From: Acidimicrobiia bacterium | Lineage (GTDB): Bacteria; Actinomycetota; Acidimicrobiia; Spongiisociales; JAHEDJ01 | DNA: 64,000 nt | NCBI GenBank assembly: GCA_035471805.1 | Contig: DATIPS010000023.1 | Span: 152,141-216,140, forward strand | Direction: 5' to 3' | Part shown: in pieces, positions 3,974 to 9,888 of the stretch | Position numbering within the stretch: position 1 is the stretch's first letter | Layout: the number at the start of each line of letters is the position of its first letter | Notes under the pieces: model-generated | What the model was told of the DNA's origin: nothing | The model's database searches: none | The model's input: the letters and a program-made list of their open reading frames with translations, nothing else | Position numbers and translations under genes: made by a program

Positions 3974-4078
3974 CGATGATCCTCCCGTCGGGTTCGGAAC
4001 CAGCCAACACCGGGGGCGGCCCGAATAGTCCCGACCTGCATGAACGGCGACGACCCGGTTCGCTCTAGCCTCCGGGTC

Positions 4079-4681: not shown

Positions 4682-5440
4682 ATGAGAAGCGGTATCCATC
4701 CCGACGCCCGTGATGATCATCGACCCGAAGGCATCCCGGCGCGAGCCCTGACCATCGGTGCCCACCCCGACGACGCCGAGTTCGGAGCGGGAGGAACCCT
4801 GGCGGGCTGGGCCGCCGCCGGGTGCGAGATCACCATGCTCGTCGTTACCGACGGTTCGAAAGGTTCCTGGAATCCCGATACCGACCACCGGACACTCGTC
4901 GATCAGCGCCGCGACGAACAACACGCCGCCGCGGCAGCTCTGGGAGCGACCACCTCGATAATGCTCGGCCACACCGACGGCGAACTCGAATACTCGATGG
5001 CACTGCGACGAGAGATGTGCCTGTGGGTCAGGAGAATCCGGCCCGACGTCGTGCTGACACACGACCCCTGGCAGAGATATCAGCTGCACCCGGATCACCG
5101 CATCACCGGAATCGCCGCCATCGACGGGGTCGTGGCGGCGCGCGACCATTTGTTTTTTCCCGATCAACTCGTCGATGGCGTAGAGAAACACCGGCCCGAT
5201 TGGATCTATCTGTGGGGCGCGGACGAAGCAGACCATTGGATAGACATCGCCGACACATTCGACATCAAGCTCGAGGCACTGCTCGCCCACTCGTCCCAGG
5301 GGACGACCACTATGGGGGATGCGCACAGGGGACGGGCGGAACGAGAAGCATTCAGGTCCCGCATGGAGGCCCGGGCTCGCCGGCTGGCACAGCCTGCCGG
5401 ACTCGACCTCGCCGAGTCGTTCAAGGTGTTGAGCCCGTAG
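4682..5440 (+). CDS. PIG-L / LmbE-family deacetylase
   Basis: Zinc-dependent N-acetyl-sugar deacetylase family that includes MshB and Mca of mycothiol metabolism. The 252 residues carry the zinc motif GAHPDDAEFGAGG at about residue 27 (H, DD), TDGSKGSW, LGHTDGELEY, and a distal HPDHR supplying another metal ligand. The substrate cannot be read from sequence: mycothiol-pathway and antibiotic/glycan deacetylases all share these motifs. It follows cofC by nine bases and is probably co-transcribed, and it ends three bases before the convergent ABC ATPase gene. Confidence 0.82.
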   Translation: MRSGIHPDARDDHRPEGIPARALTIGAHPDDAEFGAGGTLAGWAAAGCEITMLVVTDGSKGSWNPDTDHRTLVDQRRDEQHAAAAALGATTSIMLGHTDGELEYSMALRREMCLWVRRIRPDVVLTHDPWQRYQLHPDHRITGIAAIDGVVAARDHLFFPDQLVDGVEKHRPDWIYLWGADEADHWIDIADTFDIKLEALLAHSSQGTTTMGDAHRGRAEREAFRSRMEARARRLAQPAGLDLAESFKVLSP

Positions 5441-7618: not shown

Positions 7619-7621
7619 CGG

Positions 7622-7694
7622 CAGCCCCGACCAGATTCGAACTGGCGTTACCGGCTTGAGAGGCCGGCGTCCTAGGCCGCTAGACGACGGGGCC
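7622..7694 (-). tRNA. tRNA-Glu (anticodon CTC)
   Basis: 73-base cloverleaf read on the minus strand: acceptor GGCCCCG pairing with CGGGGCT (a G-U at the first pair), discriminator G, anticodon stem CCGGC/GCCGG with loop CTCTCAA giving anticodon CTC, and T arm around GTTCGAATC. CCA is not encoded. A second Glu tRNA (TTC) lies at 14597-14669 with nearly the same acceptor and D arm. Confidence 0.97.
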
Positions 7695-7717
7695 GTTATT
7701 GCCCGTTACCGGGCTCG

Positions 7718-7789
7718 CTCGGGGGGAAGGACTCGAACCCTCAATGACAGGACCAGAACCTGCTGTGTTGCCAATTACACCACCCCCGA
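7718..7789 (-). tRNA. tRNA-Gln (anticodon CTG)
   Basis: 72-base cloverleaf on the minus strand: acceptor TCGGGGG pairs with CCCCCGA, discriminator G; anticodon stem GCAGG/CCTGT with loop TTCTGGT gives CTG; T arm GAGGG-TTCGAGT-CCTTC. CCA is not encoded. It lies 23 bases upstream of tRNA-Glu(CTC) and is probably co-transcribed with it. With gatCAB present at 28.6-31.8 kb, this tRNA is likely charged first with Glu and then amidated. Confidence 0.96.
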
Positions 7790-7856: not shown

Positions 7857-8477
7857 TCAGGCGCCGGCCGCCAGTGCCACGAGTTCCTCGAACTGCTCAA
7901 CGGTAATGCCGCTGGCGACCCGTTGAACGACCACGTTGTCGCTACCCACGACGACCCACGCAGGGACATTTGGCATTCCCAGCGCAGAATGAATCGAATC
8001 GGTCCGATCGTCCACGATCACCGGCGGTGTCCACCCTTCCCGCTCGAACCAGGCGCCGGGCGGATAGTTGACCCTGGAAGGCTCGACGAGGATCGACGTC
8101 GAGTAGAGGTCGACTTCTGTCGGCAGACCGTTTTCATCGAAGTACCGCTGCAAGTCCGAGACCTCGGACTGGCAGACGGGTCACCAATGCGCCAGGTTGA
8201 GAATCAGCTTGGGTCTACCGTCGGCGGAGATCGCGATGGGATTGCCGTCGAAATCAGCACCCTCGATCGTCGGAAGTGCGAGACCTATCGCAGCATCCGG
8301 AGCACCGGGAACGAACGCCGGCAACTCCTCGCCCCGCACCGTGACATCACCGTAGACCGAGGCCTCGTCCGTGCTCAGCATCGTGGCAACAACCGCGAGC
8401 AGAGCGAAAGCCCCAACCGCACCCAGGACCAGCGGCAGCATGCTCTGCTTGCGCTTGCGCGACTTGTACTTCGCCAT
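7857..8477 (-). CDS. Selenocysteine-containing membrane-anchored TlpA/thioredoxin-like protein (copy A)
   Basis: Predicted 206-residue selenoprotein. It has a basic N-terminus (MAKYKSRKRKQ), one membrane helix (about residues 14-34) and an outward thioredoxin-like domain. Codon 99 is TGA at 8181-8183, in the context LILNLAHW-U-PVCQSEVSD. Related thioredoxin-fold proteins have Cys here (HWCPxC), so Sec replaces the attacking Cys of CPxC. The frame continues through YFDENGLPTEVDLYS and VDDRTDSIHSALGMPNVPAW (cis-Pro region) to a second TGA, the true stop. A SECIS-like hairpin lies at 8148-8175. Start ATG 8477 has GAGGAA about five bases upstream. Gene callers would split it at 8181. Role: probably a thiol-disulfide or peroxide-linked redox enzyme; direction unknown. 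Confidence 0.88.
8148..8175 (-). promoter_or_regulatory. SECIS-like hairpin in selenoprotein gene A
   Basis: On the minus strand, beginning six bases after the in-frame UGA: CTGC - CA - GTCCG - loop AGGTCT - CGGAC - TT - GCAG. That is a five-pair upper stem, an internal CA/TT mismatch and a four-pair lower stem. The loop starts 16 bases after the UGA. The loop AGGUCU is, as I recall it, that of the E. coli fdhF SECIS recognised by SelB, at nearly the same distance. Confidence 0.85.
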
Positions 8478-8533
8478 CAGTTCCTCGTTTCGCACAGTCA
8501 CACGTACAATCTGCCCGCATACATTAGGGGAAC
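8478..8533. promoter_or_regulatory. Divergent promoter region of the two selenoprotein genes
   Basis: Only 56 bases separate the two start codons, so both promoters must overlap here or extend into the coding ends. A TACAAT box (8505-8510) is a possible -10 for the plus-strand gene; I see no convincing -35. The sharing of one short control region suggests the two genes are expressed together. Confidence 0.4.
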
Positions 8534-9202
8534 ATGACGGACCAGAACACCTCAAGAACTCGATCTCTGCTCATCTTCGGAGTTGCAGGCGCTCTAGTGC
8601 TGCTGCTCGGGGTAGCCGCCGTGCTGCTGACGGGCTCCGAAGACCCCGGGATCGTGTCCGACGGCGGACCCGGAGAAGATGCCACCGCGGTGGCATCTAT
8701 CAGTGAGACCCGCCCGGTGACGGTCGTCGGGAGTGGCCTTGTGCCGATGCCCGAGCAGGGCGCGGACACGGCCCTCGGCTTGCCGATGCCGGAGTTGACC
8801 GGTCAGTCGTTCGACGGAACACCGGTGGAGATCAAGAACGACGGCAGACCGAAGATCATCATCTTCCTAACCCACTGGTGACCGCACTGCCGGTCCGAGG
8901 TCTCGGACTTGCAGAGTTACTGGTCCAGCAACGAACTGCCGACAGATATCGATATCGTCAGCGTCTCGGGCAGCAATAGGCCCACCGAAACCGGGTACCC
9001 ACCCAGCGAATGGCTCGCCGATTGGCCGATTCCAGTGCTGGTCGACGATGAGAACGGAACGGCGATGAAGAGTTACGGTCTCGTCTACTTCCCGTTCTCC
9101 GTCATCGTCGACGGATCCGGCAAGGTCGTTACCCGCCATGTCGGAGCGTTGACGGGTGCAGACCTCGAAAACGCATTCGGTTTCTTGCGAGGTGCGGGCT
9201 GA
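8534..9202 (+). CDS. Selenocysteine-containing membrane-anchored TlpA/thioredoxin-like protein (copy B)
   Basis: Predicted 222-residue selenoprotein, a divergent paralog of copy A. It has an N-terminal membrane helix (about residues 11-33), a low-complexity linker, and a thioredoxin-like domain containing LGLPMPELTGQSFDGTPVE. Codon 116 is TGA at 8879-8881 in IIIFLTHW-U-PHCRSEVSD, again the first Cys position of CPxC. The frame stays open through WPIPVLVDDENGTAMKSYG and VYFPFSVIVDGSGKVV (cis-Pro strand and beta hairpin typical of TlpA) to TGA at 9200. A SECIS-like hairpin sits at 8887-8914. Start ATG 8534 follows AGGGGAAC. The single Cys is the partner in UPHC. Without Sec decoding the protein would be truncated before its active site. 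Confidence 0.9.
8887..8914 (+). promoter_or_regulatory. SECIS-like hairpin in selenoprotein gene B
   Basis: Beginning six bases after the in-frame UGA: CTGC - CG - GTCCG - loop AGGTCT - CGGAC - TT - GCAG. The architecture and 16-base UGA-to-loop spacing are identical to copy A; the two hairpins share every base except one in the internal mismatch, while the codons on either side have diverged. Confidence 0.87.
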
Positions 9203-9229: not shown

Positions 9230-9817
9230 CTAATCGATACCGGGAACCGGCGAACCCGATTCTTCTGCCGGCTCCCGCGCCTCCGTGCCCGCGACGTAGA
9301 GCAGCACGAAGATCAGCGCGAATCCGACCAGCGACATGAACGGGAACGAGATGAACCCGAACTGCCAGATGTAGCGCTCGGTGCACGAAGCATCGACCCC
9401 GCAGAAACCCGACTCGAGGCCGGGCCTCAACTGCAGCACGTACTGATACAGGGCGATAACCGCACCGACAACCACCAGGGGGTATGAGTAGCGGCGAACC
9501 CCAAGGTCCTTGCGATACGCGGCGATCGCCAGGATGATCGCCAGCGGATACATGGCGATCCGCTGATACCAGCACAAATCGCACGGGGCGAAGTCGGCCA
9601 CCTCCGAGTAATAGAGGCTCCCAGCCATGGAAACCGCCGCGACGAACGAACCCAGCCACAGAGCGGCCGGCGACACGAGTTCAATGGCGGAGTCTCGGAA
9701 ACGGGCCACAGCCGGCGACCAGCGCGCCGCAAGCATTACCACAAGCACACCTATCACACCGGCCATCGCGGCGAGCGTGAGAAGGGCGAAGAACTTGGAA
9801 ACGGTTTCGATACTCAT
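9230..9817 (-). CDS. dsbB: DsbB-type disulfide bond formation membrane protein
   Basis: Integral membrane quinone-linked oxidase that regenerates disulfide-donating thioredoxin-fold proteins outside the membrane. 195 residues with an extra N-terminal helix followed by the usual four-helix bundle. The first redox pair is in CDLCWYQRIAMYP (CxxC in the first outer loop); the second is the FCG...SC pair in the second loop (SGFCGVDASCTERY), followed by FPFMSLVGF. ATG 9817 is preferred because GGAAGA lies nine bases upstream; ATG 9826 is possible. It is convergent with selenoprotein gene B, 27 bases apart. The clustering suggests, but does not prove, that DsbB is the electron sink for one of the Sec proteins. 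Confidence 0.9.
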   Translation of the reverse strand: MSIETVSKFFALLTLAAMAGVIGVLVVMLAARWSPAVARFRDSAIELVSPAALWLGSFVAAVSMAGSLYYSEVADFAPCDLCWYQRIAMYPLAIILAIAAYRKDLGVRRYSYPLVVVGAVIALYQYVLQLRPGLESGFCGVDASCTERYIWQFGFISFPFMSLVGFALIFVLLYVAGTEAREPAEESGSPVPGID

Positions 9818-9888
9818 TCCGGTCATTCTTCCACAGCCCCGGGCCCGGGATGACATCCGACCTCTGCAGGTCAGTTAGCCTGAGATCG

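Follow-up and report, generated by a model that had tools for sequence, protein, structure and literature searches.

The window analyzed here is a stretch of 64,000 nucleotides from an Acidimicrobiia genome (GenBank assembly GCA_035471805.1, contig DATIPS010000023.1, positions 152,141 to 216,140), in which two divergent redoxin genes, named A and B, each contain an in-frame TGA and lie beside a dsbB gene. Gene B (8534..9202, + strand) codes for a TlpA/ResA-like redoxin of 222 amino acids (aa), predicted from Pfam, the fold model, and the ratio of nonsynonymous to synonymous substitution rates (dN/dS) to be a membrane-anchored selenoprotein. Its translation starts at the ATG at 8534, has an internal stop only at residue 116, and ends at the TGA at 9200-9202. 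The internal TGA (8879..8881, + strand) aligns with Cys codons of homologs and takes the first position of a UxxC motif, where U is selenocysteine (Sec), within FLTHW-U-PHCRSEVSD. This re-translation agrees with the initial annotation, which had described a TGA in that motif and a frame open to 9202. Behind a basic N-terminus, residues 11-32 (8564..8629, + strand) form a hydrophobic segment that is likely a membrane anchor; the structure model places a helix at residues 11-31, with low confidence in that region. B scores 39.9 bits against Pfam Redoxin PF08534 (gathering cut-off 26.6 bits), and its predicted fold is TlpA/ResA-like, with ResA, CcmG, and TlpA among the best structural neighbors. 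Pro187 is invariant across the 31 sequences of alignment A4. A search of solved structures with the single sequence gave 20 matches at E 0.001 or lower, and one with a profile of 31 sequences gave none at E 1e-15 or lower. Scanning the genome contigs recovered two close relatives and one distant relative, and plasmid records contained five distant TlpA-like matches.

Gene A (7857..8477, - strand; ATG at 8477) codes for a Sec-containing homolog with 40% identity to B and a single in-frame TGA, located at 8181..8183 (- strand) by translation and alignment in the motif LAHW-U-PVCQSEVSD. A second copy on the opposite strand with a TGA at the equivalent position had been reported earlier, and it was recovered here, with B on the + strand, A on the - strand, and HW-U in both. 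The starts of the two genes are separated by 56 bp (8478..8533). The Redoxin score of A, 25.8 bits, is just below the cut-off. The third gene, dsbB (9230..9856, - strand), codes for a DsbB-family membrane protein of 208 aa with the cysteine pairs C92/C95 and C152/C158 (PF02600, 50.4 bits against a cut-off of 22.1), and it is the sole PF02600 match in the genome. It is convergent with B, 27 bp past the B stop, and lies upstream of A on the strand of A.

Several lines of evidence suggest that the UGA of B is recoded and that gene B likely encodes a selenoprotein. The genome of the window (G000; 2.85 Mb, 97% complete) has four relatives in its genus (G001, G002, G003, and G004). Both A and B retain the TGA and open frames in G000, G001, G002, and G003, while neither gene was recovered from G004, which is 56% complete. 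In the six pairs formed by the four genomes, dN/dS of B was 0.092-0.200 past the UGA and 0.124-0.409 before it, and that of A was 0.073-0.167 past the UGA and 0.069-0.189 before it, with dS above 1 in several of these pairs. In the cleaner pair, G000-G003, the downstream values were 0.092 for B and 0.073 for A. The codon-level comparison proposed in the initial annotation thus found purifying selection persisting past the UGA (0.09-0.20 for B), and neutral decay was not seen: all four genomes keep the frame beyond the codon open and free of frameshifts.

The Sec machinery is encoded in the same genome, namely a tRNA-Sec (75.2 bits, anticodon tca), SelB, SelA beside SelB, and SelD. The selD gene (G000:C31:62529-63458) has one TGA inside its frame, and its product is likely a selenoprotein itself. 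SelB was present in 9 of 10 genomes checked, including the TGA-carrying genomes G001, G002, G003, G060, and G108; in G047, a TGA genome that is 77% complete, SelB and tRNA-Sec were looked for and neither was found. A tRNA-Sec was detected in 61 of 79 relatives, and most of the genomes with Cys redoxins also have the machinery, indicating that the machinery alone does not bring Sec into the redoxin gene. G007, rated 100% complete, has SelB, two Cys redoxins, and no tRNA-Sec at E 1e-10; this genome is possibly losing Sec.

Mechanical calling of open reading frames (ORFs) splits gene B at the UGA, as if the codon were a true stop and B a pseudogene or a truncated protein of 115 aa whose downstream frame is a relic. 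We hold this reading to be highly improbable. It is opposed by the low downstream dN/dS with no frameshift in four genomes, by the full Sec machinery, and by a UGA that is shared by two genes and three further genera and is followed by invariant hairpin codons. In a truncated B, the resolving Cys would be missing as well, along with the half of the fold that contains the cis-Pro. A chance UGA or pseudogene was likewise ruled out by selection, hairpin, and machinery. Use of TGA as a genome-wide Trp codon was rejected, since A and B both terminate in TGA, and Cys rather than Trp occupies this position in the homologs.

A hairpin resembling a Sec insertion sequence (SECIS) follows each UGA. In gene B, folding and alignment place a stem of 7 bp with the loop GGUC (8899-8902) at 8892..8909 (+ strand), 17 nt after the UGA. 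Gene A has the same 7-bp stem and GGUC loop at 8153..8170 (- strand), located by folding and by the model match G000:C23:160276-160323. According to the available portion of PMC13188914, bacterial SECIS (bSECIS) elements have a loop of 3-9 nt, a stem of 4-16 bp, a G in the first two loop positions, a spacing of 16-37 nt, and a minimum free energy of -7.5 kcal/mol or lower. The hairpins of A and B agree with the model as given there (loop 4 nt, stem 7 bp, spacing 17), and the minimum free energy over 51 bases from the UGA is -22.3 for B and -22.4 for A. Selection to keep Sec, for which the initial annotation had argued, is therefore supported by these hairpins together with the downstream dN/dS and the machinery.

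The same stem, loop, and spacing were present in all 11 TGA genes of the order. The 16 bases GTCCGAGGTCTCGGAC start 11 nt past the UGA in nine of them; the other two, which are A of G001 and A of G002, differ by one base and keep the pairing as U-G. Across the 11 genes, all 77 cells of the 7-pair stem pair, with the first pair being A-U in 8, G-C in 2, and G-U in 1. Two statistical tests were weak: the stem length was attained by 11-17% of synonymous shuffles, and the covariation score by 24 of 500 column shuffles. The weight of the evidence lies in the pattern shared across the gene set. The codons at +5 to +8 are invariant in the TGA genes, whereas two to four codons are used at 28 of 29 other invariant residues. 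Among the Cys genes, the letters GGTC occur at the loop place in 22 of 119, and the closing pair is possible in none of the 119. Searching the genome with the hairpin model R1 gave A (E 4.6e-20) and B (E 1.7e-19), with the next match at E 0.004. The UGA region of selD was absent from the R1 rows, so this model misses some SECIS elements.

The hairpin also seems to have left a mark on the protein. Position +8 is Pro in 108 of 119 Cys relatives and Ser in all 11 Sec genes. A Pro codon at this position could not close the loop, and the RNA element therefore appears to override the protein consensus. Position +13 is Trp in 104 of 119 Cys genes, whereas 10 of 11 Sec genes have Tyr there; this codon is outside the hairpin and may be only a mark of descent. 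The Cys gene of G018 retains the 5' arm, with 12 of 16 core bases matching, and three other Cys genes score equally (97 of 119 were scored), which is only a hint of a decayed SECIS in this relative. In a metagenome protein, P0005, which reads HWWQHCQSEVSDY, Trp stands at the position of the UGA in the Sec genes, and the hairpin-coded residues come next; P0005 is likely another Sec member whose TGA was translated as Trp. Because ORF calling splits such genes and a likely UGA appears as Trp in P0005, genes of this kind are probably under-counted.

Homologs of B were counted across the order and the class. Of 138 genomes searched in the order, 107 matched at E 1e-22 or better, and the order-wide counts cover 105 of these (G041 and G119 were left out). 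The column of the UGA in 131 aligned homologs contained TGA in 11, Cys (TGC/TGT) in 119, and a contig-end cut in 1. The 11 TGA genes comprise both copies from G000-G003 plus one gene each from G060 (family f8), G047 (family f4), and G108 (family f2). A class-wide search of 395 genomes found 143 that match at E 1e-30 or better. Outside the order, among the matches listed, there was a single row with TGA (G304), where it is only the terminal stop and the motif is HWCPHC.

In a tree built without the motif columns, A groups with G108 (support 88/89, not strong), and B groups with G047, G060, and the Cys members G018, G007, and G014 (support 99/92). At least three Sec/Cys changes are forced on this tree, which is drawn with a midpoint root, so that gain and loss of Sec are indistinguishable. 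Within one genus, the Sec row G060 and the Cys row G018 are sisters. The near-identical hairpin in both tree groups suggests an old common Sec form followed by losses; the alternative is that transfer or conversion produced the present distribution of Sec. A and B, described earlier as paralogs, are not recent duplicates, since the tree of the whole family across the order assigns them to separate clades. A recent duplication of A into B is accordingly unsupported.

The association with dsbB is conserved. In the order, 102 of 112 loci and 102 of 105 genomes have dsbB adjoining the redoxin gene. In the three genomes that do not (G002, G023, and G067), the contig ends 21-215 bp from the redoxin gene, and the genomes of the remaining seven loci carry dsbB beside another redoxin copy. 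It lies upstream on the same strand in 99 of 102 cases, and the three exceptions belong to the genus of the window (G000, G001, and G003), where B is inverted between dsbB and A. In other orders of the class, 20 loci were sampled among the better matches, and 19 of them have dsbB; at the one locus without it, the redoxin gene begins 284 bp from the contig start. In a small control, no dsbB was present at five other thioredoxin-like or UGA loci. The pattern of both Cys pairs was matched in 88 of 102 DsbB rows.

Taken together, B is probably a UGA-recoded selenoprotein that acts as a membrane-anchored, extracytoplasmic UxxC thiol-disulfide oxidoreductase and is re-oxidized by the neighboring DsbB. 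SelB and tRNA-Sec would read the UGA as Sec, and the N-terminal helix would anchor the redoxin domain outside the membrane. Sec116 might then attack substrate thiols or disulfides, with Cys119 as the resolving residue, and DsbB would restore the UxxC pair to a selenenylsulfide and pass the electrons to quinone. Copy A could have an equal role with other substrates. Relative to the Cys forms elsewhere in the order, Sec would be expected to speed exchange and to resist over-oxidation.

The same fold could also serve a reductive function. B may be a reductant or repair enzyme similar to ResA, CcmG, or TlpA, acting on disulfides of cytochrome c apoproteins, CuA centers, or damaged secreted proteins, with the dsbB linkage reflecting a shared redox theme and no direct electron transfer. 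We consider this possible yet unlikely. The structural neighbors of B speak for it, and so does the chemistry of the motif, since Sec in UxxC thermodynamically favors reduction. It accounts less well for the adjacency of dsbB, mostly upstream on the same strand, throughout the order and in nearly all loci outside it. CPHC, which is termed DsbA-like in the title of PDB 3c71, is the commonest motif of the Cys relatives (59 of 119). In addition, no cytochrome c maturation gene was found among the six neighbors scanned with NCBIfam. All six are metabolic or transport genes of an ordinary kind, namely pyruvate kinase, a PIG-L-type deacetylase, an ABC ATPase, an SDR, threonine dehydrogenase, and glycine C-acetyltransferase, named partly from models scoring below cut-off.

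Re-oxidation by DsbB also has to be weighed against a role of B as a Sec peroxidase of the peroxiredoxin type, clearing peroxides outside the membrane. Although the fold is compatible, we held this unlikely on the motif and give it very little credence. The Sec peroxiredoxin motif is PxxxTxxU in the available part of PMC13188914; PxxxTxxU/C is absent here: the 11 Sec genes have A, S, or T at position -3, and B lacks a Pro at -7. HWUxxC is a thioredoxin-type pair, in which a second Cys follows three residues later, and Pro187 does not vary. The initial annotation had proposed that Sec speeds thiol exchange or peroxide reduction. The former fits the UxxC motif, the TlpA/ResA-like fold, and the DsbB neighbor, while the latter fits less well.

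A protein with DsbA-like domains is encoded elsewhere in the genome (L164:1216-2664 (+), G000:C33). It has 482 aa, is likely a lipoprotein, and contains two DsbA-like Thioredoxin_4 domains with CPxC in each. This protein is a possible competing or alternative partner of DsbB.

Sec in a redoxin is not new, as UxxC redoxins are already listed in the literature. A UxxC 'Redoxin family protein' (PF08534) is included in reviews (PMC13188914 Table 1; PMC9312934), and a marine survey from 2008 described a UxxC 'Prx-like 3' with PF08534 (PMC2398784); to judge from the accessible portions of these sources, the two are probably the same family. It shares the Pfam family and the UxxC motif with B; its catalogued representatives are HEU0032618.1 and MBA3499694.1. 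The accessible text of these sources describes no dsbB neighbor or divergent Sec pair for this family. DsbA-like UxxC selenoproteins (PF01323) also appear in the accessible parts of PMC13188914 and PMC9312934; B gave no match to PF01323 or PF13462 up to E 0.01.

Like the B locus, the DsbA-DsbB system has an oxidoreductase with a DsbB-family protein encoded next to it, and the CPHC/UPHC motif is common to both; the predicted fold of B, however, is TlpA-type. StoA, ResA, TlpA, Etrx2, SdbA, Mt-DsbE, and Mt-DsbF have Cys where B has Sec, and Mt-DsbE and Mt-DsbF are thought to partner DsbD or Rv2877c. The scores of B against NCBIfam models were well short of the cut-offs (StoA, 56.9 vs 210; DsbE, 32.8 vs 123.15; ResA, 27.7 vs 170 bits). 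In the open-licence literature, covered mostly as titles and abstracts, we found no dsbB-linked selenoprotein, divergent Sec pair, or Sec/Cys switching within one order, and no open-licence paper was found that combined 'selenoprotein', 'Actinobacteria', and 'DsbB'.

If the proposed function is true, Sec in a DsbB-linked oxidoreductase puts selenium into extracytoplasmic disulfide formation, where a more reducing residue is unexpected. A broader picture, to which we would give even chances, is a selenium-based oxidative folding system in which both redoxins of the dsbB locus carry Sec and DsbB charges their selenenylsulfides, with at least three Sec/Cys changes in the order and with the SECIS displacing the Pro at +8. 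The order is a natural experiment, with matched pairs such as G060 (Sec) and G018 (Cys) for asking why Sec is kept. Four residues of the protein appear to be set by the hairpin, a clear example of RNA and protein constraints in conflict.

Further genes with an in-frame TGA were observed in other genomes. In G036, G020, and G054, a second and distant thioredoxin-like family has TGA in AEW-U-P[AT]C-RRELPV; its loci (L067 on the + strand, base 4050; L068 and L069 on the - strand) have their own conserved bases after the UGA. This family was not among the matches in the genome of the window when searched with P0001. In G064, a TGA occurs in VTW-U-PLC-ATAMVHRREINGEE (L066, - strand, base 345 of the reverse strand), and the protein presumably resembles the DUF3179 selenoprotein. 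The latter is listed in Table 1 of PMC13188914.

Two other features of the window lie near the redoxin genes. The PIG-L-type deacetylase (4682-5440, + strand) is nearest to the bacillithiol enzyme BshB1, with 106 bits against a cut-off of 182.5, and a low-molecular-weight thiol pathway may be encoded near the locus. Genes for tRNA-Glu (ctc) and tRNA-Gln (ctg) are located just downstream of gene A, at 7620-7789.
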